From Actinomycetota bacterium (GTDB lineage: Bacteria > Actinomycetota > Rubrobacteria > Rubrobacterales > Rubrobacteraceae): a DNA stretch of 64,000 nucleotides. The stretch is from positions 1 to 64,000 of the forward strand of contig SIRX01000144.1 in the NCBI GenBank assembly GCA_004563715.1, in the 5' to 3' direction. The stretch's first letter is position 1, and the number at the start of each line of letters is the position of its first letter. The position numbers and the translations under genes were made by a program. Below the pieces are notes generated by a model. That model was not told the DNA's origin. It made no database searches and saw only the letters and a list, made by a program, of their open reading frames with translations. Positions 44,887-60,063 of this stretch are shown here, one piece after another.

Positions 44887-45519
44887 TCAGCGGGCGGCAG
44901 CGCTTTTTTGGTCTCGCAGGTAGTCCAGCACCGCCTCCACGGAGACCACGTCTCCGTACTTGGCGTCCACATCGTAGAGGCTGGCCTCGTGGGCTGCGGG
45001 GTTGCGGTCGCCCACCGCCTCACGCGGTAATACGGGCCGGTAACCGTACTGCAGGGCGTCCACCGCCGTAGCCCGCACGCAGCCGGAGGTCGAGGCGCCC
45101 GTGACGATGAGGGTATCCACACCCGCGGCCACGAGCGCGCTGGGAAGCCCCGTTCCGTAGAAAGCCGAGGCGAAGAGCTTGTTCAAGACGGGCTCGGTCT
45201 CCCGCGGCGTAATGCGCGGGTCCACCTCGGCCCACCGGCTGCCGGCTTTGAGCGTGAGAAGGGCCGGCACCTTGTCTATGAACGCGGCGGCGGTCACCTT
45301 GTCGGACTCGCGGTAGGCGACGGTGGTGTAGATAACAGTTATCTCGGCCAGCCGGGCCGCCGCCAGAAGCCTGCCGATGTTCTCTACCGGGCCTTCGAGG
45401 TCGCAGGCCAGGGGAGATCCGGGGTCGGTGAAGCCCAGGGTCATGTCCACGATGATGAGGGCGGGCCGGCGGCCGAAGCCGCCGCGCCCGCCGAAGCCTT
45501 CCAGGTGCCGGTCGCTCAT
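44887..45519 (-). CDS. Isochorismatase-like hydrolase, N-carbamoylsarcosine amidase/maleamate amidohydrolase-like
   Basis: ALIIVDMTLGFTDPGSP, KLFASAFYGTGL, TGASTSGCVRATAVDALQYGYRPVLPREAVGDR (D-K-C triad); ATGA overlap with hyuB. Confidence 0.85.
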   Translation of the reverse strand: MSDRHLEGFGGRGGFGRRPALIIVDMTLGFTDPGSPLACDLEGPVENIGRLLAAARLAEITVIYTTVAYRESDKVTAAAFIDKVPALLTLKAGSRWAEVDPRITPRETEPVLNKLFASAFYGTGLPSALVAAGVDTLIVTGASTSGCVRATAVDALQYGYRPVLPREAVGDRNPAAHEASLYDVDAKYGDVVSVEAVLDYLRDQKSAAAR

Positions 45520-47417
45520 CGGCGACCGTTGGTCCGCTGCGCCCCGAGCTCGCCCGAGAGCCACTCATTGAACGCCCGGCGGGTCTCGGCGACAACGCGC
45601 CGCTGCTCTTCCAGCGGCGGGAGCGGACCGTGGTCGAAGCCGGGCAACTCGCCACGGGCACCTTTTAGCTCCTCTCGCCGGGCCTCGGTCGCCGCAGCGT
45701 CCACGGCTCCACCGTCCAGAACGACGCCGTACTCGTCTGCTGCAGCCTCCGCACTGACGAGGCCCCAGCGGACGTCCCTGGCGACGGCTTCCGGCTCACG
45801 CTCCAGAGGGTCGCCGACGCCGCCGGCTCCGGCGGTCTCGAAGACCAGGCGGTCGCCCTCGAAGACGGGTACGTCGCGCACCTTGGAGGGCAACTCCACC
45901 TCCTCACCGCCCTCGCGGACCAGGGTCTTCCGCGAGGCCGCGCCAGGCTTGCCGCCAGCGACGCCGTAGGGGAAGGTGTGGTGGCGATCGTCCTGGTAGG
46001 TGATGCGGCCGTCGGTCAGGAAACGGTAGACCTTCTTTATGCCGCAGCCACCGCGGAACTGGCCCGCGCCGCACGAGTCCTTCCGGGCGGAGTACTCGGC
46101 CACGATCATGGGGTAGTACGTCTCCATGTACTCAGCGGGCACCGCCAGGAACTCCGGCCACCAGGAGTGTCCGTCCAGGCCGTCCTTGCCGGGGATGGCC
46201 GGTATCCCGCCGTACAGGATCTCCATGGTCTGGAACGGCTCGCCATCCTTTTTCACGCCGGAGTAGACGAAGTTCGGGCTCGTGCCGTAGGAGCCGGAGA
46301 CGTTGAAGCCGATTGCCTTTGCGTAGACCGCGCCGAGCACGTCGAAGAGGCGCGCCATGACGACCAGACGGTTGGACAGAGGCGCGGGCTCCTCCGGGCG
46401 CAGGACCGAGCCCTCGGGGATGTTGACCTTTATGACGTCCGAGTAGCCGTCGTTAAACAGGATGGTCGGGTCTACGGCGGAGATCAGGAACACCCCGGCG
46501 AACATCTGGAACATCCGGTGGTTGAGGAGGAAGTTGACGGGCCCGGGGACCTGAGCGTCGGTGCCGGTCCAGTCCAGGTGCAGAATGTCGCCCTCGCGCC
46601 ACATGGAGAGCTTGAGCTTTATGGGACCGTTGCCGAGGCCGTCGTCGTCGGTGTAGTCCTCGAACTCGAAGGTCTGCCCCTCGGGGATGAGCTGGTGGAT
46701 CAGGCCGATAATGCTCGTCCTCGTCCGGTCGAGCAGGGCGTCGCACGCCTCCAGGTAGGTGTCTTTGCCGAAGCGGTCGCAGATGTCCTTTACCCTTTGG
46801 GCGCCCGCCGCCGTGCCGGCGGCTATGGCCATGACGTCGGCGCGGGTCTCGCGCGGAGTGCGGGAGTTGTGGCAGAAAAAGCGCAGGACCTCCTCGTTCA
46901 GCCTGCCCGCGTCGTAGAGCTTCACGGGCGGCATCCGGACGCCCTCCTCGTAGATCGAGCGGGCGTCGATGGGGATGCTCCCGGCGGTCGAGCCGCCGAC
47001 GTCCATGAGGTTGCCCCACTGCAGGGCGTAGCCGATGTGCTCGCCGTCGTAGAAGATCGGACGCACCAGCAGGATGTCGGGGAGGTGGGACGTGCTCCCC
47101 TCCATCATGTACGGATCGTTGAGGGCGATGACGTCGCCGTCCTTGAGGTCCTCGACGCTGTAGGGCGAGTGCTCCAGCACGGTGTCCACCGGGCTGCCGA
47201 ACTGGCCCACGACCATCCGGCCCTGGCGATCGGCTATAAGGGGGAACTCGTCGGCCTGCTCCCGGATAACGGGGCTCACGGCGGTGGTCACCAGCACCCG
47301 GTCCATCTCGTGGCGGATGTTCTTGAGAGCGTTCTCGATGATGTCGAGGGTTACGTGGTCTATGTCGTGCTCCCGGACGAAGTCCGGCAGGCCCTGTTCT
47401 CTCTCGTGTAGCACCAT
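45516..47417 (-). CDS. hyuB: Hydantoinase B/oxoprolinase family protein
   Basis: LNDPYMMEGSTSHLPDILLVRPIFYDGEHIGYALQWGNLMDVGG. Confidence 0.94.
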   Translation of the reverse strand: MVLHEREQGLPDFVREHDIDHVTLDIIENALKNIRHEMDRVLVTTAVSPVIREQADEFPLIADRQGRMVVGQFGSPVDTVLEHSPYSVEDLKDGDVIALNDPYMMEGSTSHLPDILLVRPIFYDGEHIGYALQWGNLMDVGGSTAGSIPIDARSIYEEGVRMPPVKLYDAGRLNEEVLRFFCHNSRTPRETRADVMAIAAGTAAGAQRVKDICDRFGKDTYLEACDALLDRTRTSIIGLIHQLIPEGQTFEFEDYTDDDGLGNGPIKLKLSMWREGDILHLDWTGTDAQVPGPVNFLLNHRMFQMFAGVFLISAVDPTILFNDGYSDVIKVNIPEGSVLRPEEPAPLSNRLVVMARLFDVLGAVYAKAIGFNVSGSYGTSPNFVYSGVKKDGEPFQTMEILYGGIPAIPGKDGLDGHSWWPEFLAVPAEYMETYYPMIVAEYSARKDSCGAGQFRGGCGIKKVYRFLTDGRITYQDDRHHTFPYGVAGGKPGAASRKTLVREGGEEVELPSKVRDVPVFEGDRLVFETAGAGGVGDPLEREPEAVARDVRWGLVSAEAAADEYGVVLDGGAVDAAATEARREELKGARGELPGFDHGPLPPLEEQRRVVAETRRAFNEWLSGELGAQRTNGRR

Positions 47418-47421
47418 CTTT

Positions 47422-49470
47422 TTATGCCTCCTCGATCAGGATGTTCCCGAAGCGGTCTACGGCGCCCTTGTAGCCGGGCTCGATGACGGTCGTGGTGTCG
47501 TCCTGCACGACGACCGCCGGTCCCTCGACGGCGTGGTCGGGCCGGAGCAGGCCCCGGTCGTAGATGGGCGTTTCCCTCCAGGCGCCGTTGAAGTACACCT
47601 GCTCGGTGCGCAGGACCGCGCTCTCTTCCCCGGCGCCGTTCTCGCTCTCGACCAGGCTCACGCCCTTTATGGTGCCGCGCCCGACGACGCGGACCGTGGC
47701 GATCTCCAGCGGCGAGTCCGGCAGCTCGAAGTTGTAGCGCTGGCGGTGGGCCTCCTCGAAGCGCGCCCGCAGGAAGGTCGAGTCCTCGCCGGCCAGCTCG
47801 TCCAGCTCGAAGCGGCAGGGGATCTGGATGTTCTGCAGGTAGTAGCGGCAGTCCGCGTACAGGTCGAAGCGCTTGTTCGCCTCGGAGACGCCCTCGCCGT
47901 CCAGCCACTCGTTCGCCTGGGAGATGAGGCCCTCCACCGTCTCCTTCAGCTCCGAGGCCGGGGTGTCCTCGGCGTTACGCAGGTACGTCTCGGGAAACTC
48001 GTTCTGGATGTCCGAAGAGAGGAAGCCGAAGGCGCTCATCACGCCCGGCGTCGGCGGCACGATAACGGAGCGGGAGCGGATCAGCCGCCCCAGGGCGTTC
48101 GCGTGCATCGGCCCCGCCCCGCCGAACGCCACGAGCCCGAACTCCCGCGGGTCGTGCCCGCGCTCGACGCTCACGACCCGGAGCGCCGCGTGCATGTTCT
48201 CGTTGACGATCTCCAGGATCGCCTCCGCCGCCTCCTCGACGCCCATCCCGAGCCCCTCGGCGACGGTGGAGACCGCCCGGCGGGCCGCCTCCTCGTCCAG
48301 CTCCAGCGTGCCCCCCAAAGCCACGCCGGGCGGGATGCGGTGCAGCACCACGTTCGCGTCCGTGACGGTCGGGGCCTCGCCGCCGCGCCCGTAGGCCGCG
48401 GGGCCGGGGTCCGCGCCCGCGCTCGCGGGGCCGACCTGCAGGGCGCCGCTCGCGGAGAGGAAGGCTATCGAGCCGCCGCCGGCGCCGACGCTGTGGACGT
48501 CAACGGCCGGGCTCTTGAAATGGAAGTAGCCGAGCTGGATGTCGCGGCGCACCGGCGTCTCGCCGCCCAGGCAGAGGGAGACGTCGGTGCTCGTCCCGCC
48601 CATGTCGAACGTGAGGACGTCGGGGACCCCGATCTCACGCGCCAGATACGCCGAGCCCGTCACGCCGCCGGACGGCCCCGAGAGCGCGATCTGGATGGGT
48701 CTGTCCGCCACCGCCTGGGTGCTCATCGCTCCGCCGTCGGAGCGGACGATGGAGAGTCGGCCACCAAATCGCTTCTCGTCCATCGAGGACTCGAAGTTCC
48801 TCATGTAGAGCATCGTGCGCGGCTGGACGGCGGTGTTCACGACGGTCGTGAGCGTCCGCTCGTACTCGCCGTACTCCTGGCCGATGTCCGCCGAGATCGA
48901 GACCGAGAGGTCCGGGTACAGCTCGCGCAAGATCTCGCGCGCCCGCCGCTCGTGCGCCGGGTTGACGTAGGAGTTGAGGAAGCCGATGGCGACCGACTCG
49001 ACGCCCCGCTCGACGAGCGTCTTCACCGCTTCGCGCACCCCGTCCTCGTCCAGCTCCAGCAGCACCGAGCCGTCGGCCCCGATGCGCTCGGCGACGCCTA
49101 TGGTGTCGGTCGGGTCGGCGGGCGGGTCCGGCTTCTGGAGGGCCATCCAGCCGTAGAGTGGGCCCGGCGTCCAGGCGCGGGCGAGCAGGAGGACCTGCTC
49201 GTGGCCCTTTGTCGTCAGCAGCCCCACCCGCGAGCCGGTGTTCGTGAGGATCATGTTCGTCACCACGGTGGTGCCGTGGAAGAGCAGGTGCAGGTCGGTA
49301 AATCCTATACCGACCTTCTCGCACACGCTCTCGATGCCGGTCACGACCCCGCGCGAGGGATCCTCCGGCGTCGAGAGGACCTTGCCCTCGGTCAGCTCGC
49401 CCGTCTCCTCGTTGAAGACCAGCACGTCCGTGAACGTCCCGCCGACGTCTACCGCCACGTTGTACGCCAA
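47422..49470 (-). CDS. hyuA: Hydantoinase A/oxoprolinase family protein
   Basis: YNVAVDVGGTFTDVLVFNEETGELTEGKVLSTPEDPSRGV; TFDMGGTSTDVSLC; TTG start with GGAGGAA RBS. Confidence 0.94.
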   Translation of the reverse strand: MAYNVAVDVGGTFTDVLVFNEETGELTEGKVLSTPEDPSRGVVTGIESVCEKVGIGFTDLHLLFHGTTVVTNMILTNTGSRVGLLTTKGHEQVLLLARAWTPGPLYGWMALQKPDPPADPTDTIGVAERIGADGSVLLELDEDGVREAVKTLVERGVESVAIGFLNSYVNPAHERRAREILRELYPDLSVSISADIGQEYGEYERTLTTVVNTAVQPRTMLYMRNFESSMDEKRFGGRLSIVRSDGGAMSTQAVADRPIQIALSGPSGGVTGSAYLAREIGVPDVLTFDMGGTSTDVSLCLGGETPVRRDIQLGYFHFKSPAVDVHSVGAGGGSIAFLSASGALQVGPASAGADPGPAAYGRGGEAPTVTDANVVLHRIPPGVALGGTLELDEEAARRAVSTVAEGLGMGVEEAAEAILEIVNENMHAALRVVSVERGHDPREFGLVAFGGAGPMHANALGRLIRSRSVIVPPTPGVMSAFGFLSSDIQNEFPETYLRNAEDTPASELKETVEGLISQANEWLDGEGVSEANKRFDLYADCRYYLQNIQIPCRFELDELAGEDSTFLRARFEEAHRQRYNFELPDSPLEIATVRVVGRGTIKGVSLVESENGAGEESAVLRTEQVYFNGAWRETPIYDRGLLRPDHAVEGPAVVVQDDTTTVIEPGYKGAVDRFGNILIEEA

Positions 49471-49505
49471 AATTCCTCCTTTTCCCGATAAAGCAACCTG
49501 CTCGT

Positions 49506-50399
49506 TTATCCTGATACCGGCTCGAAGTTGCCGGCCTTGTACACCTGTCCCGGAAGCTCCTTGCCGAGCTGCTCCGCCATCCAGGCCGCCACCCCGATGA
49601 GCGCGTCGAGGTCTATCCCCGTCTCGTGTCCCATGCCGTGCAGGAGGTAGACGAGGTCTTCGATAGCTATGTTGCCGGTCGCCCGCGGGGCGAAGGGGCA
49701 GCCGCCCGTCCCCCCCGCCGCCGCGTCGAGCACCGTCGCCCCGCTCTCGATGGCCGCCACCGCGTTCGCCATCCCGGTGTTTCGCGTGTCGTGGAAGTGG
49801 CACCCGGCGGTGACGCCGAGGTCCGCCACGCCCGCGACCAGCTCCCGCACTTGCGAGGGCACCCCGACCCCGATGGTGTCAGCGAGCACGACCTCGTCGG
49901 GCGCCGATTCGGCGACTTTCCCGGCGATGCGCAGCACGTGATCCGGCTCGACCCGCCCCTCGAACGGGCACCCGAAAGCGGCGGAGAGCGTGATCGAGAC
50001 CCGCACCCCGTCGAGGCGCGCCCGCTCTACGATACGGCCCGCGAGCGCCGTGGCGTCCTCGACGGTCGTGTTCTGGTTGCGCCCGGCGAACTCCTCCGTG
50101 ACCGGGAAGGCGTAGCGCACCTCGTCCACGCCCGCTGCCACGGCCCGCTCGTAGCCCTTCTCGTTCAGGACGAGGCCGGCGTAGCCGGTGCCCTCGCGCC
50201 GGTTCAGGTTCGCCAGCACCTCCTCGGCGCCGGCCATCTGCGGTACGCGCTTGGGGTTGACGAAGCTGGCGGTCTCGACCCGCGGGACGCCGGCGGCGGC
50301 GAGCCGGTCGCACAGCTCGGCGCGCGTCTCGGGCGAGAGCGTCGTGCTCTCGTTCTGGAGGCCGTCGCGGGGGCCGACGTCCACGACCTCGACGCGCAT
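49506..50399 (-). CDS. Hydroxymethylglutaryl-CoA lyase-like
   Basis: VDVGPRDGLQNESTTLSPETR; GCHFHDTRNTGMANAVAAIESG; GGTGGCPFAPRATGNIAIEDLVYLL. Confidence 0.92.
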   Translation of the reverse strand: MRVEVVDVGPRDGLQNESTTLSPETRAELCDRLAAAGVPRVETASFVNPKRVPQMAGAEEVLANLNRREGTGYAGLVLNEKGYERAVAAGVDEVRYAFPVTEEFAGRNQNTTVEDATALAGRIVERARLDGVRVSITLSAAFGCPFEGRVEPDHVLRIAGKVAESAPDEVVLADTIGVGVPSQVRELVAGVADLGVTAGCHFHDTRNTGMANAVAAIESGATVLDAAAGGTGGCPFAPRATGNIAIEDLVYLLHGMGHETGIDLDALIGVAAWMAEQLGKELPGQVYKAGNFEPVSG

Positions 50400-51613
50400 C
50401 AGACGAGCCCCCGCTCGCGCAGCCCGGCCAGTTCCTCCGCGCCCAGATCCAGGAGATCACCGTAGACCTCGTCGTTGTGCTGCCCGAGCGCGGGGCCGGT
50501 CCAGCGGACCTCTCCGGGCGTCTCGGTCAGGCGCGGGACGACGTTCTGCATGGGGAACGGCCCGATCTCCGGGTCCTCCACCTCGACGACGTTGCCCCGG
50601 GCGGCGTAGTGCGGGTCCTCGACCATGTCCGCGGCGGTGAAGACCTTGCCCGCGGGCACCCCGGCCTCGCGCATGGCTTCGAGTATCTCGTCACCGGTCC
50701 GCTGTTTCGTCCACTCGGAGATCCTGGCGTCCAGCTCCTCCATGTTCTCGCCGCGGGCGTGGTGGGTAGCGTAGCGTTCGTCCTCGGCCCACTCGGGGTG
50801 CCCGAGCGCCTTGGCGAGCCGGCGGAAGACGTTGTCGGCGTTGCCGGCTATAAGGACGTAGTCTTTATCCCTCGTGGGGTAGATGTTAGACGGGGCGACG
50901 AAAGGCAGCACGCTGCCGGTGCGGCCCCGAACCTGGCCGGCCAGCACGTACTCGGGGATGGTGCTCTCCATGAGCGCCAGCACGGCCTCGTAGATGCCGA
51001 CGTCCACCACCTGTCCCCGCCCGTCGTGCGCCTCGCGGTGGTAGAGGGCGGTCAAAGCGCCCAAAGCGCCGAAGGTCGCCGCGAGCGAGTCGCCCAGCGA
51101 GATGCCGGTGCGCGGCGGCGGCAGGTCCGGGAAGCCGGTGACGTGCCGGATGCCGCCCATCGCCTCGCCGATAGAGCCGAAGCCGGCCTGTTTGCGGTAG
51201 GGACCGGTCTGGCCGAAACCCGAAACCCGCACCATCACCAGGCCGGGGTTTATCTCCGAGAGGCCCTCGTAGCCGAGCCCCCACTTCTCCATCGTGCCAG
51301 GCCGGAAGTTCTCGACCAGCACGTCGGCCTCGGCTATGAGCCGGCGCGCCAGTTCCTGCCCCTCCGCCTCGCGCAAGTTCAGCGTCACGCTCTTCTTGTT
51401 GCGGGCGATTATGGGCCACCAGAGGGTACGCCCGTTCTTGCGGTGGCGGCCCCACTCGCGCATAGGGTCGCCCTTGCCGGGCGGCTCGACCTTTATGACC
51501 TCCGCCCCGAAGTCTCCCAGAAGCTGGCCGCAGAACGGCCCGGCTAGCAGGCTCCCCATCTCGACCACGCGGACGCCGTCGAGCGGGCGGGTGCCGTCTG
51601 GCGCTGGGTTCAA
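50399..51613 (-). CDS. CaiB/BaiF family (type III) CoA-transferase
   Basis: LDGVRVVEMGSLLAGPFCGQLLGDFGAEVIKVEPPGKGDPMR; SVTLNLREAEGQ; LVENFRPGTMEKWGLGYE. Confidence 0.95.
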   Translation of the reverse strand: MNPAPDGTRPLDGVRVVEMGSLLAGPFCGQLLGDFGAEVIKVEPPGKGDPMREWGRHRKNGRTLWWPIIARNKKSVTLNLREAEGQELARRLIAEADVLVENFRPGTMEKWGLGYEGLSEINPGLVMVRVSGFGQTGPYRKQAGFGSIGEAMGGIRHVTGFPDLPPPRTGISLGDSLAATFGALGALTALYHREAHDGRGQVVDVGIYEAVLALMESTIPEYVLAGQVRGRTGSVLPFVAPSNIYPTRDKDYVLIAGNADNVFRRLAKALGHPEWAEDERYATHHARGENMEELDARISEWTKQRTGDEILEAMREAGVPAGKVFTAADMVEDPHYAARGNVVEVEDPEIGPFPMQNVVPRLTETPGEVRWTGPALGQHNDEVYGDLLDLGAEELAGLRERGLV

Positions 51614-51681
51614 GTCGTGCCCTCCTTACTTTCGGGATCAGGGGTGCCCCTAAGCATAGCCTCGCGGAGCTCCAGGCGCCT

Positions 51682-52002
51682 TCATACTCGGGCGGTCTCC
51701 GCGACGAGCGCGTCGAGCTGCCTGCCCCAGCTCTCGTAGGACCTGAGCGGCGTCCATTCGAGTTTCACCATCGTCGAGTAGCCCTCAGCCCACATCGGCA
51801 GGGCATGGATCACCTCGTCTATCGTGTCGGCGGTCTCGGCTTCGATGATGCCCATGACCTCATCCTGGCCCGGGACCTTGTAGAGCTCGCGGATCAAACC
51901 CAACTTCAGCGCCTCGCGGCCCGCGACGGTCTCCCGCTGCCAGACGCCGTAGAACTCCTCGTTGGACATACCGGGTGGCCGCTTCACCCGGGCGCGCAGC
52001 AT
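51682..52002 (-). CDS. Muconolactone delta-isomerase-like small protein
   Basis: 106 aa; MSNEEFYGVWQRETVAGREALKLG-LIRELYKVPGQDEVMGIIEAETADTIDEVIHALPMW. Confidence 0.7.
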   Translation of the reverse strand: MLRARVKRPPGMSNEEFYGVWQRETVAGREALKLGLIRELYKVPGQDEVMGIIEAETADTIDEVIHALPMWAEGYSTMVKLEWTPLRSYESWGRQLDALVAETARV

Positions 52003-52028
52003 GAATAAAATTACTGCCTCCTTTCTGG

Positions 52029-52155
52029 CTCAGATCTCCCGTCCTAGCTTCTCTTCCTCGTAGATCACTGCCGCCGCCCGCCGCGGGGCCACAGCGTCGC
52101 CGACGCGATGTACTTCGGGGAGTCGCCGCACAACTCGTGGTAGAGACGGTCATTC
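52029..52155 (-). pseudogene. Remnant C-terminus of an NADH:flavin oxidoreductase/2,4-dienoyl-CoA-reductase-like flavoenzyme
   Basis: Minus strand NDRLYHEL then (shifted frame) RLPEVHRVGDAVAPRRAAAVIYEEEKLGREI*. Confidence 0.65.
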
Positions 52156-52193
52156 GGCGTTCTGCTCATCACCAGGACCACAGAAAGCGCCCT

Positions 52194-53675
52194 TCAACCC
52201 AGTCCGAGCGAGCCAGGGTTCACGAAGCCGCCGGGGTCCACGATGCTCTTGAAGCCACGGAGCACCTCCCACGTCTTCGGCTCCAGCCGGTCGGCGTAGT
52301 CGTAGTACTTGCCAACCTGGATATGGACGCCGCCCAGAGCGTCGAAGGTCGCCGCGAGCCTGCGTCGCAGGTCGAGCACGGCCGCCCGGGCCTCCAGGTC
52401 CGTTGGCGTCTTCTCCCACTCGGCCGCCGCCTCGGAAGCTATGCGCTCCAGGCGGAACCTGCCGAGCTGGTCGAACCAGTAGAACGAGGGCTCGAAGACG
52501 AAGTCGTTGCCCGAAGCGGCGGTGAGGTAGGAGACCTTTATGCCGTGCTTCTCCAGCGTCTCCCGGTTCTCCTCCATGAACGCCTGAACCGCCTCGACCG
52601 CCTTCTGGGAAGTCGAGTAGGGCAGAAAGGCGTGGATCGGCAGCCACAGCTCCCCTTCGGGTCCGAGCAGCACGGACTGGACCGCCCCGAACGGGTCGGC
52701 CCGGAAGGCCGTGGCCGCCGTCGGGTCTATCTCCCGCCCGTGCCTGGCGGCGATGCCCTTGAGGAAGTCGAGGCTAGCCCGGGCGGTCGGCTCGTCGGGG
52801 CCATCCACGACGATGTGGACGCTCCAGTCGTGCTCCGCGAGGTAGTCCAGGCCGATGCGGGAGAGCACGTCGTGGTAGAAGGGGTCGAGGCCGTAGATCT
52901 CCGCGGCCAGACCGTGGTTCGCCATCTCCTGCATCGCCCGCACGCTGTCGGCGAGGCTGTCCACGGCGAAACACGCCCCGACCGTCACCGCCGGCCTTGG
53001 CACCAGCCGCAGCGCCGCGCGGGCCTTTATGCCAAGTGCCCCGGTGTCCCCGAGGAACGGCCCCGTGAGGTCCGGGCCGTTGTAGCGGAAGAACGGCGTG
53101 CTGCCCTTGCGCGCCCACGATCCCGTCCGCAGCACCTCGCCGCCCGCGAGGACGACCTCCAGCCCGAGGACCGAGTCGGCGACGGTGCCGTGCACCCCCG
53201 AGCCGTAGAAGAGGCTGTTCTGCGAGAGCGCCCCGCCGACCGTGGCGTACTTGCCGGAGAGCGGGCCGAAGTAGGGCGTGCGGACCCCCTGCTCGCCCAG
53301 CTCCTCGTAGAGCTGCTTCCAGGTGCAGCCGCACTCGACGACCGCGTAGAGGCTCTCGGTGTCCACCTCGACGATGCGGTCCATCCGGCGCATGTCTATG
53401 AGCACCGTGGACGGCCCCTGGGGCGTGAAGCCGCGCGTGTAGGACATCCCGCCGCCGCGGGCGACAACCGGAGAGCCGGCCTCATGCGCGACGCGGACCA
53501 CGGCGGCGAGCTCCTCCGTCGAGCCCGGCTGGACGACGATCTCCGCGATCTCCGCCCTCTCGAAGCTGAGGTCACGCGAGAAATACTCGCGCTCTTCCTG
53601 GTCCGTTATGACGTGCTCGGCGCCGACGATCCCGGCCAGGGTGTCAACGAGTTGGGGTGTCGTCTCGGTGGTCAT
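52194..53675 (-). CDS. FAD-linked oxidase (GlcD/D-lactate-dehydrogenase-like)
   Basis: VVARGGGMSYTRGFTPQGPSTVLIDMRRMDRIVEVD; KYATVGGALSQNSLFYGSG. Confidence 0.92.
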   Translation of the reverse strand: MTTETTPQLVDTLAGIVGAEHVITDQEEREYFSRDLSFERAEIAEIVVQPGSTEELAAVVRVAHEAGSPVVARGGGMSYTRGFTPQGPSTVLIDMRRMDRIVEVDTESLYAVVECGCTWKQLYEELGEQGVRTPYFGPLSGKYATVGGALSQNSLFYGSGVHGTVADSVLGLEVVLAGGEVLRTGSWARKGSTPFFRYNGPDLTGPFLGDTGALGIKARAALRLVPRPAVTVGACFAVDSLADSVRAMQEMANHGLAAEIYGLDPFYHDVLSRIGLDYLAEHDWSVHIVVDGPDEPTARASLDFLKGIAARHGREIDPTAATAFRADPFGAVQSVLLGPEGELWLPIHAFLPYSTSQKAVEAVQAFMEENRETLEKHGIKVSYLTAASGNDFVFEPSFYWFDQLGRFRLERIASEAAAEWEKTPTDLEARAAVLDLRRRLAATFDALGGVHIQVGKYYDYADRLEPKTWEVLRGFKSIVDPGGFVNPGSLGLG

Positions 53676-54177
53676 CTTCCCTCTCCTCGTTCGTGCCGCC
53701 CGACATCCGGTCGGCGGCGGTACTCACGGCCTGAACGATCTTCTGGTAGCCGGTGCAGCGGCAGAGGTTGCCCTGGAGGGCGTGGCGTATCGCCGCCTCG
53801 TCCGGCCGCGGGTCGGTCTCCAGCAGCTCCTTTGCCGAGAACATCATCCCCGGCAGACAGTAGCCGCACTGGAAGCCGTACTCGTCCCAGAAGGACTGCT
53901 GGATCTGGTGCAGCTTCCCGTCCCGGGCGAGGCCCTCGACGGTCTGGATCTCGCGCCCGTCCGCGCTCGCCGCGAGCATGAGGCACGACTTGGCGATCTT
54001 GCCGTCCACGACGACCGTGCAGGCCCCGCAGTCCCCGGTGAGGCACCCTATATGCGTCCCCTTCAGCCCGAAGACGTCCCGGATCGCCTCCACCAGCAAC
54101 AGGCGCGAGTCTACTTCAGCTGAATGCTCCCGGCCGTTTATGGTCGTCCGCACCGCCACGATGCTCTTCGTCTCCAT
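53644..54177 (-). CDS. Xanthine-dehydrogenase-family [2Fe-2S] subunit
   Basis: GCLTGDCGACTVVVDGK; QCGYCLPGMMFSAKELL; LCRCTGYQKIVQAV. Confidence 0.95.
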   Translation of the reverse strand: METKSIVAVRTTINGREHSAEVDSRLLLVEAIRDVFGLKGTHIGCLTGDCGACTVVVDGKIAKSCLMLAASADGREIQTVEGLARDGKLHQIQQSFWDEYGFQCGYCLPGMMFSAKELLETDPRPDEAAIRHALQGNLCRCTGYQKIVQAVSTAADRMSGGTNEEREDDHRDDTPTR

Positions 54178-54187
54178 CCTGTTCCTC

Positions 54188-55051
54188 CTAACCGCCGTTC
54201 GCCGCCGCGAGCAGCACCCGCTTCGCAACGACCCCGGCGACGCTCTTGCGGTACTCGCCGTCGGCCAGCACGTCCGTCCACGGCTCCGCCACCGCCCGGT
54301 GGGCAATCTCCTCGACCTCCTGGGCCACCTCCCGCGTCACGGGCGAGCCCTCGAGGACGGCCCCCACCTCGACCCGGAGCGGCGTCTCCGCCACCGCCCC
54401 GAGCGCGAGGCTCGCCGAGCGGCAGCGCCCCTCCTCGTCGAGTCCGAGCACACAGGCGGCGGTGGCGATGGGCCACCCGCTCTCGCCGAACTTGAGCTTG
54501 TGGTACGCGAAGCGGGCGCCGGCGGGCGGGGTCGGGATCGCCATCCCGGTTAGCATCTCGTCCGGCCGGGCTGCGGTCCGGAAGGCCCCCCGAAAGAAGT
54601 CTTCGGCGGCGACCTCCCGCTCCCCGCTCGCTCCCAGGAGGCGCATCTTCGCGCCGAGGGCGACGAGCCAGGCCGGAGCGTCGGAGGAGGGGATGGCGTA
54701 GCAGGCCGAGCCGCCAGCGGTGGCGAAGTTCCTCACCTGGGCGCCGCCGGTGATCTTAGCAGCGGCGATTGGCAAGAGGCCGACCTTCTCGCGCAGGAGG
54801 CTCGATGCGACGATCTCCGAGTAGGTGGCCGTCGCGCCGACTACGACGTGGCCGTCCTCCTCGCGTATCTCTGAGAGCCCGGCGCGCCGGAGGTCGATCA
54901 CGCGCGCGGGCCGGACCCTGCCGTGGGTCATGTCGGGGACGACCCAGGTCCCCCCGGCCAGCAGCTTCGCCTCGCCGGCGGAGGGGGTGAGCATCTCCAC
55001 GGCTTCTCCGGTGCTCCCGGGGACCAGGTACTCAAGGGTGCGTGTGATCAC
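54188..55051 (-). CDS. Xanthine-dehydrogenase-family FAD-binding subunit
   Basis: AKLLAGGTWVVPDMTHGRVRPARVIDLRR; ITGGAQVRNFATAGGSACYAIPSSD. Confidence 0.92.
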   Translation of the reverse strand: MITRTLEYLVPGSTGEAVEMLTPSAGEAKLLAGGTWVVPDMTHGRVRPARVIDLRRAGLSEIREEDGHVVVGATATYSEIVASSLLREKVGLLPIAAAKITGGAQVRNFATAGGSACYAIPSSDAPAWLVALGAKMRLLGASGEREVAAEDFFRGAFRTAARPDEMLTGMAIPTPPAGARFAYHKLKFGESGWPIATAACVLGLDEEGRCRSASLALGAVAETPLRVEVGAVLEGSPVTREVAQEVEEIAHRAVAEPWTDVLADGEYRKSVAGVVAKRVLLAAANGG

Positions 55052-57462
55052 GATACACCTCCCTTCTCCGCGGCCTCCCGGATGGCGCGCAGCACGTTCG
55101 GCGGGCTGAGCGGCATCTGCCGGAGGGTGACGCCTAGCGGCGCGAGCGCGTCGTTGACGGCGTTGGCGACGGCCGCCTGCGAGCCGCCGACGCCCGCCTC
55201 ACCCGCGCCCTTCGCCCCGAGCAGGGTGAAGGGACTCGGGGTTACCTGGTGCTCCATCTCGAAGGAGGGCAGGTCGCCGGCCCGGGGCATCAGGTAGGTC
55301 TTGAAGCGATCCGTCAGCAGGTTCCCTTCGTCGTCGTAGATGAGCTCCTCGGAGAGCGCGGCGCCCACGCCCATAGCAACCGCGCCCTGCATCTGGCCCT
55401 CGACGAAGGTAGGGTTGATGATGGTGCCGCAGTCGTGGACGACGCCGAAGCGCTTGAGGTCCACCACGCCGGTCTCGGCGTCTACCTCGACGACCGCCAG
55501 GTGGACGGCGCTGGAGTAGGACGGGTAGGGTTGGATGCGGCCCTTCTCATCCGGGATGTGGGTGATGTTGTCCGGCTTGTAGACCCGGGTGGACTCCAGC
55601 GTGGGCTCGACCATCGCGGCGGTGGCGAAGGCGAGGGTGAGCACAGAGTAGGCGACGGTTTCGGTGGGTAGGGAGGCGTCGGGGTTGTCGCGGCGGGAGA
55701 TCACGCCCTCTCCGAACTCCAGGTTCTCGGGCTCAGTCTCCAGCATCGCGGCCGCGACCTTGGCGAGCTTCTCGCGGATGTCACGCGCCGCCAGGGCTGC
55801 GGAGCCCCCGCCGACGAGCATGCTGCGGCCAGAGTAGTTGCCGAAGCCATAGGGGCAGAGACCGGTATCGCCCTGGATCACGGTGACATCCTCCAGAGAC
55901 ACCCCGACCTCGTCGGCCACTATCTGCGCGATACCGGTCTCGTTGCCCCCGCCCGGCGTCGTGACCCCGGTGAGGACCGTAACCTTGCCCTGCGGGTCCA
56001 TCTTGACGGTCGTAGTGTCGAAGCCGGCCACCAGCGTGCCGGGGATGTCGCCGCCCTCCGGCGTGAGCTCGAACGCGAGACCGATGCCGAGGTAGCGGCC
56101 CTCGGCGCGCAGCCGCTCCTGCTCGGCGCGCAGGTCGTCGTAGCCCATCATCGCAAGCGCCTTGTCCAAGGCGCCGTGGTAGTCGCCGGAGTCTATGTTG
56201 AGGCCGGCGTTGGTCTTGTAGGGGAACTCGTCCTTGTTTATGAAGTTGCGCCGCCGGACCTCGGCCGGGGCCATGCGGAGCTTCTGCGCCACGAGGTCCA
56301 CGATGCGCTCCATGACGAGGTTCGTGGCCTCCTTGCCGTAGCCGCGGGAGGCGTTCCAGGGACCTTTATTCGTTGCGACGATGGAGACCTGGACGTCCTG
56401 GTTGGGGATCCTGTACCCGGTCGGGAAAGAGAGCGCCGTGAGAAACGCCATCCCCCACCCCGGCGGCGCCCCGAGAGCCCCCACGTTGGCGACGATGTTG
56501 TTGCGCAGGCCCGTGATCCTGCCCTCGTCGTCAAACGCGACCTTGAAGGTGTGCGTCTGCTCCCGCCCGCCGATGAGGAAGGTCTCCCTGCGGTCCTCGA
56601 TCCACCGGACGGGCCGCTCCAGCATCCGGCTGAGCATGCACACGAGCGCCTCCTCAGGGTGCCCGTGCATCTTGAGGCCGAACCCGCCGCCGACGTGCGG
56701 GGCGACGATCCTGATCTTCCCCTCCGGCAACCCCAGAGCATGCGAGAGAACCCAGCGCAAGGGGTGCGGGTTCTGGCAGGCCCCGTAGAACGTGAGGCTC
56801 TCTGCAGAGGTGTCCCAGTCGGCGACGTAGCCGCGAGTCTCAATGGGCGCCGTGGTATAGCGCTGGATGCGGACCTCGTCCTCCAGGGTATGCTCGGCCT
56901 CCGCGAAAGCCGCCTCCACGTCACCCTCGACGAAGGGGATGTGGATGATCGTATTGTCCTCCCATCCCTCGTACAGCAGCGTCCCTCCCTGCGTTCCCGC
57001 CGCGGGCTCGAGCCCCACCTCCAGCGGCTCATACTCGACGGCGATGGCGTCGAGGGCGGCCTCGGCGTCGTTGCGCGAGGCGGCTACGACGGCGGCGACG
57101 GGCTGACCGGCGTAGACGACCTTCTCCACGGCCAGGCAGCGCACCTCCGCCGTCTTCCCGCCGAAGACGGCGGGGTCTATGAAGTGCGGCACGGGGCCCG
57201 TAAGCTCCCGGGCGTCCTCGCCGCTCACCGCGGCGACCACGTCGGATATCTCCAGCGCCCGGCTCACGTCCACGCTCTTTACGTGGGCGTGGGCGTGCGG
57301 GCTGCGGAGCACGGCGGCGTGCAGCATGCCGGGAAGCTCGATGTCCGCGACGTACCGCGCCTTGCCGCGGACGAAGAGATCCCCTTTGAGCTTCTTCTGG
57401 CGGGAACCGACGTACCTCCTGCGCGGGGCCTCTCGCGGCGCCCGCTCGACCTCTATGGTCAT
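55048..57462 (-). CDS. Xanthine-dehydrogenase-family molybdopterin-binding subunit
   Basis: 804 aa; VGGGFGLKMHGHPEEAL; NASRGYGKEATNLVMERIVDLVA; GAKGAGEAGVGGSQAAVANAV. Confidence 0.95.
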   Translation of the reverse strand: MTIEVERAPREAPRRRYVGSRQKKLKGDLFVRGKARYVADIELPGMLHAAVLRSPHAHAHVKSVDVSRALEISDVVAAVSGEDARELTGPVPHFIDPAVFGGKTAEVRCLAVEKVVYAGQPVAAVVAASRNDAEAALDAIAVEYEPLEVGLEPAAGTQGGTLLYEGWEDNTIIHIPFVEGDVEAAFAEAEHTLEDEVRIQRYTTAPIETRGYVADWDTSAESLTFYGACQNPHPLRWVLSHALGLPEGKIRIVAPHVGGGFGLKMHGHPEEALVCMLSRMLERPVRWIEDRRETFLIGGREQTHTFKVAFDDEGRITGLRNNIVANVGALGAPPGWGMAFLTALSFPTGYRIPNQDVQVSIVATNKGPWNASRGYGKEATNLVMERIVDLVAQKLRMAPAEVRRRNFINKDEFPYKTNAGLNIDSGDYHGALDKALAMMGYDDLRAEQERLRAEGRYLGIGLAFELTPEGGDIPGTLVAGFDTTTVKMDPQGKVTVLTGVTTPGGGNETGIAQIVADEVGVSLEDVTVIQGDTGLCPYGFGNYSGRSMLVGGGSAALAARDIREKLAKVAAAMLETEPENLEFGEGVISRRDNPDASLPTETVAYSVLTLAFATAAMVEPTLESTRVYKPDNITHIPDEKGRIQPYPSYSSAVHLAVVEVDAETGVVDLKRFGVVHDCGTIINPTFVEGQMQGAVAMGVGAALSEELIYDDEGNLLTDRFKTYLMPRAGDLPSFEMEHQVTPSPFTLLGAKGAGEAGVGGSQAAVANAVNDALAPLGVTLRQMPLSPPNVLRAIREAAEKGGVS

Positions 57463-57478
57463 GGACGTTCCTCCTCGG

Positions 57479-58063
57479 TCAGGGGAGCTCTATCCTCAAA
57501 ACGACGCCCCTGCGCTCCGTGATGTTGCGCTTCTCGACGTCGAGCTTGTGGATACCGCCCCTCTCGTCCAGCTCGGACTGCAGCCCTTGCGTAAGCGCCC
57601 GGTGGCTGGTGTACAGCGTCAGCGCGCCGTCCACGAGCGGGAACGGCGGCTCGTGCCAGGTGCCCCGGTGGAGGTTGACGGCGACGTCCCCGGGAACGAA
57701 GAAAGCGTGCACCTCGTCCAGCGCCGGTATGCCGTCCTCCTCCCGGCAGTCCGGCGGCGCCACCGCCAGGATGAACGGGTGGCCGGCCAGCGGAACGAAC
57801 GTCTGCGTCAACTCCACGTGCCGCTCCAGGAAATGCACCCGGAACTCGCGCAAACGGTTCCTCGTGAGCAGGAACTCTACGGGCTGGTCCGACTCGAAGA
57901 CGCCGGGCCGGTAGACATCTATCCGGTCGCCGTAGATGTCTATCGGCAGCCGCTCCAGCCCTTCCAGACCGAGCACCTCCCCGAACGGCGCAAACGCCTC
58001 TCGCGTCAGCAGCTCCGCCCGAACCGTCCGGACCTCCAGCCCGGTACCACCCTTGAGAGACAT
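57479..58063 (-). CDS. Ureidoglycolate lyase family protein (AllA-like)
   Basis: LLTREAFAPFGEVL; PLAGHPFILAVAPPDCREEDGIPALDEVHAFFVPGDVAVNLHRGTWHEPPFPL. Confidence 0.85.
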   Translation of the reverse strand: MSLKGGTGLEVRTVRAELLTREAFAPFGEVLGLEGLERLPIDIYGDRIDVYRPGVFESDQPVEFLLTRNRLREFRVHFLERHVELTQTFVPLAGHPFILAVAPPDCREEDGIPALDEVHAFFVPGDVAVNLHRGTWHEPPFPLVDGALTLYTSHRALTQGLQSELDERGGIHKLDVEKRNITERRGVVLRIELP

Positions 58064-58147
58064 GGGGTCTCGTCCTCCTTCCGCAGCTTCCATAGCCGCA
58101 AAGCGGCCCCCTACACCGCCAGCTGTTCTTCGACGCCAACTAGCGTC

Positions 58148-58188
58148 TTTGTATACAAATACTAATCCCGGCCGCTGTCTTGTGTCAA
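58148..58188 (-). promoter_or_regulatory. Promoter plus GntR-type operator in front of catabolic operon
   Basis: Minus strand TTGACA (58188..58183)-N18-TAGTAT (58164..58159) overlapping palindrome TTTGTATACAAA (58148-58159). Confidence 0.75.
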
Positions 58189-58254
58189 GTATTTCAAGAA
58201 ATTTCGCCTTTTGTACAGCTTTTTCGGCTTGGCGTCGGTCACGGGCCAGTACGG

Positions 58255-58262
58255 TGTATACA
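58255..58262. promoter_or_regulatory. Possible additional operator half-conserved copy
   Basis: TGTATACA core shared with the two flanking operators. Confidence 0.4.
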
Positions 58263-58293
58263 TTGCGGATAATTCGAGGCTAACGGCGGGTGG

Positions 58294-58977
58294 TTACCCC
58301 AGCTCTCTCTTGAGGGCTTCGATCACGAAGTCGCGGCCTTCGTAGACGTGCTCGCGCATGACGATCTCGGCCCGCTCGGCGTCGCCCTGTTCCAGGGCGT
58401 GCAGTATCTGCCGGTGGTAGTGGTTGGAGATGGTCCGCTCGTGGGGCGTGTACCAGTAGAAGGCCTTGAACATGAGCGGGACCTGGACGGTACGCTGAAT
58501 CAGGCGCTCCAGCCGCCGGTTGCGGCACGCCGTGACGATGGTCCCGTGAAAGTCCTGATTGCGGGCGACGAGCCACCGGATCTCCTCTTCCCGGTCGGCG
58601 AATCGCCCGGGGTGCGTCCGCTCCATCTCCGCCGCCAGGCTCCGCAGCTCGTCCAGCTCGCGCGCCTCTATCCGGGCGGCGGCCCTACGGGCGGCATAGC
58701 CCTCCAGCACGGCCCGCAGGTCGTAGATGTCCCAGACCTCCTCGATCCCGAAGGAGCACACCGTCGCACCCCGGTTGGGTGAGATCTCCACCAGCCCCTC
58801 GGCCTCCAGCATCGTGAGCGCCTGACGCACCGGCGTCCGGCTTACCCCCAGACGCTCCGCGAGCTGCTCCTCCACCAACCGCTCGTCCGGCCCGTACTCG
58901 CCCTCGAGGATCAAACCCCGCAGCCGCTCGAAAACCCCCGGAGAGCTCCCTTTGCCCTTCGCCCTCGTATCCATCAC
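58294..58977 (-). CDS. GntR-family transcriptional regulator (FCD/FadR subfamily)
   Basis: DERLVEEQLAERLGVSRTPVRQALTMLEAEGLVEISPNRGATV; FCD-type C-terminal domain. Confidence 0.95.
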   Translation of the reverse strand: MMDTRAKGKGSSPGVFERLRGLILEGEYGPDERLVEEQLAERLGVSRTPVRQALTMLEAEGLVEISPNRGATVCSFGIEEVWDIYDLRAVLEGYAARRAAARIEARELDELRSLAAEMERTHPGRFADREEEIRWLVARNQDFHGTIVTACRNRRLERLIQRTVQVPLMFKAFYWYTPHERTISNHYHRQILHALEQGDAERAEIVMREHVYEGRDFVIEALKRELG

Positions 58978-59016
58978 CCTTCTTCTCCTGCCCGCTTACA
59001 CGTCCCTTACCACCCT

Positions 59017-59054
59017 TTGTATACAATCTTAGCTGCGTCAGGGCTTTGTGTCAA
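59017..59054 (-). promoter_or_regulatory. Promoter plus operator in front of gntR gene
   Basis: Minus strand TTGACA (59054..59049)-N17-TAAGAT (59031..59026) abutting palindrome TTGTATACAA (59017-59026). Confidence 0.75.
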
Positions 59055-59104
59055 TTGTTCCAGATCAGATGCCGAGGACAACAAGCTGGCTCGATGGTTC
59101 GTCT

Positions 59105-59300
59105 TCAAGGTGTGGCTCCAGGGGGCAGGGGTTCTTCCACCAGGAACGCCCGCACGACGTCGGCGTAGAGTACCGGCCGGGCGTCCGCGATGGAGTGTCC
59201 CGCACCTTCGACCACCAGCAGGGTGGCGTCGGGGAAGACGTCCCGGTACTCGCGGGCGACCTCCCGCCACCAGACTCTCCGCAGAACCCGTCGGGATCGA
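59105..59300 (-). pseudogene. Truncated alpha/beta-hydrolase C-terminus
   Basis: REVAREYRDVFPDATLLVVEGAGHSIADARPVLYADVVRAFLVEEPLPPGATP* without an N-terminal half. Confidence 0.7.
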
Positions 59301-59397
59301 ATCCACCGCTCACATTGACACGCGAACATAAAGACTGATATACATGGCATAGTACGCTGAGCCGTTTGGCGTCCCGTGAAGTGTGAAGGAGCCCCGA

Positions 59398-60063
59398 ATG
59401 ACTGGTCGCATCGATGCCGTTGCTTTCGACGTACTGGAGACGCTGCTCGACCTCGACCCGATCGGGGCCCGGCTCGAGGAGGTCGGGCAGCCCGCGGCGG
59501 TGCTGGGGCCGTTCTTCATGCGCTTCCAACGGGATGCGATGGCGCTGACCCTTGCCGGTGACGTCGCGGACTTCACCGCGACGGCCCGCCAGGCGCTGCG
59601 CACCGAGACCAAGCAGGCAATGTCGGAAGACGCCATTGCCCACGTCCTGGAAGGCTTCGCGAAAGTCCCGGCGTTCCCGGATGCCGAGCCGGCGCTGCGC
59701 AATCTCTCCGAAGCCGGGGTGACCATCGGCTGCCTGACCGTCGGCGACCCGGACAACACCCGATCGTTTTTGGCCGGGGCGGGCCTGGAGACCTACGTCG
59801 ACCACGTAGTGACGTCCGATGCGGTCGGCGTGTGGAAGCCCGCCCCCGAGGTTTACCATTACACCGCGAAGGCCCTGGGCTGCGACCTGGACCGCATGGC
59901 GCTGGTCGCGGTGCACGCCTGGGACTGCCACGGTGCCAAGCGGGCCGGCGCCCTCGCCGGCTGGTGCTCCCGGCTCGAGGGCGAGCCCGGCGACGTCTTT
60001 CAGCCCGCCGACGTCCGGGGCGATGACCTCGTCGAGGTCGTCGACGGGCTGCTGGCGCTCTGA
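59398..60063 (+). CDS. HAD-superfamily hydrolase (type II haloacid-dehalogenase-like)
   Basis: AVAFDVLETLLDLDPIGARL; VTSDAVGVWKPAPEVYHYTAKALG; HAWDCHGAKRAGALAGWC. Confidence 0.88.
   Translation: MTGRIDAVAFDVLETLLDLDPIGARLEEVGQPAAVLGPFFMRFQRDAMALTLAGDVADFTATARQALRTETKQAMSEDAIAHVLEGFAKVPAFPDAEPALRNLSEAGVTIGCLTVGDPDNTRSFLAGAGLETYVDHVVTSDAVGVWKPAPEVYHYTAKALGCDLDRMALVAVHAWDCHGAKRAGALAGWCSRLEGEPGDVFQPADVRGDDLVEVVDGLLAL

Follow-up and report, generated by a model that had tools for sequence, protein, structure and literature searches.

A putative GntR operator at two promoters of a Rubrobacteraceae catabolic locus, with a probable auxiliary site

FCD-GntR regulators with related binding sites

The solved structures closest to the GntR protein described here, by sequence and by fold, are PmiR of Pseudomonas aeruginosa (PDB 7xp0 and 7xp1) and Atu1419 of Agrobacterium fabrum (PDB 6z74, 6za3 and 6za7), both FCD-GntR regulators. 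Atu1419, a member of the VanR group, binds the palindrome ATGTATACAT and loops DNA, and its DNA-contact residues are Arg31, Glu34, Ser44, Arg45, Thr46 and Arg49 (PMC7797058). In vitro the loop forms between palindromes 190 bp apart, and the protein also binds a degenerate palindrome, matching at 8 of 10 positions, that lies 109 bp from a main site (PMC7797058). More generally, the motifs of the FadR subfamily are A/T-rich palindromes made up of TKGT and ACMA boxes, with two bases separating the GT and the AC (PMC4494728).

The window analysed here is a stretch of 64,000 nucleotides corresponding to positions 1–64,000 of contig SIRX01000144.1 (assembly GCA_004563715.1), from a parent genome of 3.47 Mb. 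It includes a gene for an FCD-GntR protein (Table 1), in which both the N-terminal winged helix (PF00392, 71 bits) and the C-terminal FCD domain (PF07729, 87 bits) scored far above the cut-off. PmiR was the best match in the PDB by sequence (E 1.2e-24) as well as the best by fold, but at a sequence identity of only 31–32%. In an AlphaFold model (pLDDT 83.8) the C-terminal domain has six predicted helices (residues 78–102, 105–119, 129–150, 154–174, 178–196 and 200–226) rather than seven; six is the number that defines the VanR group, to which the model assigns the protein. The PhnR model (TIGR03338) was considered and rejected, as the protein scored 137.6 bits against a curated cut-off of 271.5. 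The genome also codes for two other FCD-GntR-like proteins, paralogues at 32–37% identity.

The likeness to Atu1419 extends to the residues expected to matter for function. R33, E36, S46, R47, T48 and R51 match the DNA-contact residues of Atu1419 and are identical to them, and N140, H144, H188 and H210 align with its zinc-binding N137, H141, H192 and H214; all ten are invariant among the orthologues aligned. The second set would provide the Asp/Asn and three His residues of metal-binding FCD regulators, a metal site that is predicted here by alignment. As in Atu1419, a 10-bp palindrome with a TGTATACA core lies over promoter elements of the regulator's own gene and of a catabolic promoter, and a degenerate second palindrome is found, 105 bp from the main site here and 109 bp there. 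The differences are an overall identity of about 30%, operator ends that distinguish TTGTATACAA from ATGTATACAT, and the catabolic genes, which are not the same. The site is also a TKGT/ACMA palindrome with 2-nt spacing, at both promoters and in relatives, and so has the form of the FadR-subfamily motifs, but these belong to other genes and lineages and the likeness is one of motif (PMC4494728). The original prediction had stated that FCD-GntR proteins bind short AT-rich palindromes of this class, which agrees with both the Atu1419 site (PMC7797058) and the 2-nt-spaced motifs of the FadR subfamily (PMC4494728). Neither the exact 10-mer nor the 12-mer led to anything useful in the literature, and the same was true of a search for MdcY.

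The palindrome at two promoters and its conservation

Table 1. Positions of the regulator gene, promoters, putative operators and catabolic genes in the window
Feature	Position	Strand	Details
Conserved targets: caiB (CoA transferase III), hmgL, hyuA, hyuB	45516–51613	-	directly after gntR in most relatives
Rest of block: coxL, coxM, coxS (molybdenum hydroxylase), FAD-linked oxidase, muconolactone-isomerase-like (MIase) protein	51682–57462	-	
allA-like gene (ureidoglycolate lyase family)	57479–58063	-	Pfam PF04115; leader sequence
Operator B (main, putative), TTGTATACAA	58149–58158	-	inside 12-mer TTTGTATACAAA, 58159–58148
Catabolic-operon (allA) promoter	58159–58188	-	TTGACA 58188–58183, 18 nt, TAGTAT 58164–58159
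Probable auxiliary operator, ATGTATACAC	58254–58263	-	8/10 matching; core TGTATACA 58262–58255
gntR, FCD-GntR regulator	58294–58977	-	227 aa; VanR group (from model); Pfam FCD and GntR
Operator A (putative), TTGTATACAA, at gntR promoter	59017–59026	-	exact copy; kept upstream of gntR in relatives
gntR promoter	59026–59054	-	TTGACA 59054–59049, 17 nt, TAAGAT 59031–59026

Two near-identical promoter-palindrome architectures had been predicted on the minus strand, and both are present, at a frequency above chance and with recurrences in relatives (Table 1). An independent consensus promoter scan of positions 45300–60000 (14.7 kb) gave three hits, compared with 0.8 in shuffled sequences, and these included both promoters, each with 10 of the 12 consensus bases. 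The palindrome had been described as abutting the -10 element and covering the expected +1. It does overlap the predicted +1 at both TTGACA promoters, but at gntR the first T of Operator A is also the last base of the -10, making this an overlap rather than an abutment. Similarly, the proposal of an explicit operator held in that the palindrome occurs at both promoters, while the conserved unit proved to be the 10-mer TTGTATACAA and not the 12-mer.

The 10-mer is rare. The window contains two exact copies, against 0.1 expected in shuffles even when one mismatch is allowed, and these are the only two in the whole 3.47-Mb genome, one before allA (58158–58149) and the other before gntR (59026–59017). 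The genome scan that had been suggested as a means of defining the regulon thus yields, in this genome, an exact-match regulon of one locus, and in a search for a wider regulon no site matching at 8/10 or better was found in the other operon gaps checked.

The surroundings of gntR were compared at 26 loci, namely the window, 23 further Rubrobacteraceae genomes in which the sequence upstream was usable and two Sphaerobacter contigs, with gntR orthologues at 59–80% identity. In every case the 10-mer was found, exactly in 23 and with one mismatch in three, either in the 320 bp ahead of gntR or in the gap that follows it; the window has it in both places. While these flanks held 23 exact copies of TTGTATACAA, 19 other palindromes of equal composition gave no exact match there. 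A perfect TTGACA begins 27–31 bp ahead of the operator at 19 promoters, and the gntR promoter string TTGACACAA-N-TAAGATTGTATACAA was found again in four relatives (G061, G028, G011 and G007). Among 40 genomes of the family there are 45 exact sites, of which, in a tally made by hand, 28 adjoin gntR and 17 lie elsewhere, compared with 14 for the reversed control pattern; in genomes that lack gntR the 10-mer is close to background. This conservation pattern is the signature of a putative operator evolving together with its regulator. The gntR tree was weakly resolved, and the order of the operator arrangements was not separable from it.

Individual sites include two that adjoin gntR and have one change in the core (TTGTGTACAA and TTGTATGCAA, in G033 and G016; L029 and L024). 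Away from gntR, an exact TTGTATACAA lies beside a gene for an rpoD-like sigma factor, in intergenic sequence shared by three members of one genus (position 1501 of L083, L084 and L087); these sites were set aside.

Auxiliary sites and their spacing

The third core noted in the original prediction, at 58255–58262, is present and is probably an auxiliary operator, a reading that draws on its counterparts in relatives. It lies 30 bases past the gntR stop codon and 105 bp upstream of Operator B, centre to centre, which corresponds to 10.0 helical turns, so that the two palindromes at looping distance that characterize Atu1419-type looping are found at this promoter (58263–58254 and 58158–58149). 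Counterparts occupy the homologous gap at 126 bp (G022, G001 and G013), 115 bp (G019) and 117 bp (G008). Elsewhere, second sites were found upstream of the promoter-bearing site at 128 bp (G009), 125 bp (G023) and 134 bp (G003), as well as at 145 and 167 bp in the Sphaerobacter contigs, and three genomes (G004, G012 and G021) have a different arrangement consisting of pairs 52 bp apart. Over all scanned regions together, about 0.37 auxiliary sites were expected by chance.

The ten main-to-auxiliary spacings, ranging from 52 to 167 bp, all fall within 0.24 turn of a whole number of turns at 10.5 bp per turn, which suggests DNA looping, if indirectly. Tested against uniform spacing, the phasing gave p ~0.0003 over all ten arrangements. 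Leaving out the 52-bp pairs raised this to 0.001, restricting it to Rubrobacteraceae whose auxiliary sites lie upstream to 0.003, and counting each lineage once to 0.015. The test was applied post hoc, after the pattern had been seen, to values that are few, partly related and not fully independent. At 12 of the 26 loci, including those of G061, G028, G020 and G036, the auxiliary site is absent, so that a loop would not be required for control in general. Operator A likewise has no looping partner within 260 bp, and the 7/10 match at a distance of 319 bp is too poor to qualify.

The target operon and its proposed control

In most relatives gntR is followed by caiB, hmgL, hyuA and hyuB; G016 showed no hmgL and G023 neither hyuA nor hyuB, and a contig end cuts several of the gntR loci short. 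A block comprising allA, coxLMS and the FAD oxidase and MIase genes (51682–58093) separates gntR from caiB in the window. For allA, the ATG at 58063, which has AGGAGG ahead of it, is more likely to be the start than the ATG at 58093. No gene of the block is present at the gntR loci of the relatives, allA and the FAD oxidase were not found among the other 39 genomes of the family, and a search for a donor in 396 other genomes of the phylum gave no match to the FAD oxidase at E <= 1e-100. The gap that follows gntR in the window can be aligned with the one between gntR and caiB in G019, G008 and G022, including the auxiliary and main sites and the TTGACAC promoter, and the promoter and operators are therefore probably older, with the block inserted behind them. 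The allA-cox block is best read as a lineage-specific insertion into an operon that was already under control, and the older target of that control would be caiB-hmgL-hyuA-hyuB. The 'AllA/Cox operon' of the original prediction would be this insertion, standing ahead of the conserved target. hyuA and hyuB (45516–49350) scored highest against subunits of caprolactamase and acetophenone carboxylase, though falling far short of the cut-offs; at a guess, from the family names, the substrate may be an N-heterocycle or lactam-like compound entering a CoA pathway.

An autoregulatory, occluding operator at the gntR locus is strongly supported by the conservation of the site and its likeness to the Atu1419 site (PMC7797058) and the FadR-subfamily motifs (PMC4494728). 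From the sequence comparisons, it is very probable that GntR represses two promoters, that of its own gene and that of the catabolic operon, via these sites. A GntR dimer on TTGTATACAA would cover the transcription starts of both and so keep RNA polymerase off, and a small molecule derived from the pathway would release it by binding to the FCD domain, which holds the predicted metal site. The operon promoter has in addition the weaker second site (58263–58254) ten helical turns upstream, and by analogy with Atu1419 a dimer of dimers could bring the auxiliary and main sites together, closing a short loop of DNA and so tightening repression. We give this loop an even chance. Counting against the proposed model are the degeneracy of the auxiliary site in the window and the low identity to Atu1419. 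The promoter of the operon, along with both its sites, would predate the allA-cox block, which, by entering between the sites and caiB, may have been placed under existing control.

Repression might also be simpler, with the start at each promoter occluded by a single dimer and without any loop; the third core would then be a remnant or have arisen by chance. The many loci that have no auxiliary site, together with Operator A, would fit this explanation. On the other hand, an auxiliary core occurs at the homologous position in several genera, at spacings (105, 115 and 126 bp) that differ by approximately whole turns, and the number of sites expected by chance over the scanned regions is well below one. 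Repression without a loop is a serious possibility, though it falls somewhat short of an even chance.

Some FadR-subfamily proteins both activate and repress. This dual behaviour, and the position of the auxiliary site upstream of the -35, would suit activation of the operon by GntR from these sites instead of repression, but the exact, conserved site extends over the presumed start and reaches the -10, where a bound protein would normally block polymerase, and the -35 and -10 are already close to consensus; activation is most unlikely. Binding of the palindrome by another regulator, such as one of the FCD-GntR-like paralogues, or its being a common promoter element, appears more improbable still. 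Related regulators share similar motifs (PMC4494728), and the genome does have such paralogues, at 32–37% identity. However, as the genome has no further exact TTGTATACAA, there is none near the two paralogues, and across genera the site tracks gntR.

Taken with repression by GntR, the comparative data raise the tentative possibility, to which we would give rather less than even weight, that looping by an FCD-GntR tetramer, as demonstrated in vitro for Atu1419, is a conserved device of the Rubrobacteraceae, with operators shifted by whole turns, and that a catabolic block of foreign origin fell under regulation as soon as it arrived behind a looped promoter. The locus would be a local gene switch of an ordinary kind, and the conserved, phased auxiliary site is its most interesting part. 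For a lineage that has received little study, it supplies a defined putative operator and a regulon of one locus, and it exemplifies how a regulated promoter already in place can be captured by inserted catabolic genes. The whole-turn spacing over several genera offers a comparative handle on how commonly GntR-family repressors may loop DNA.
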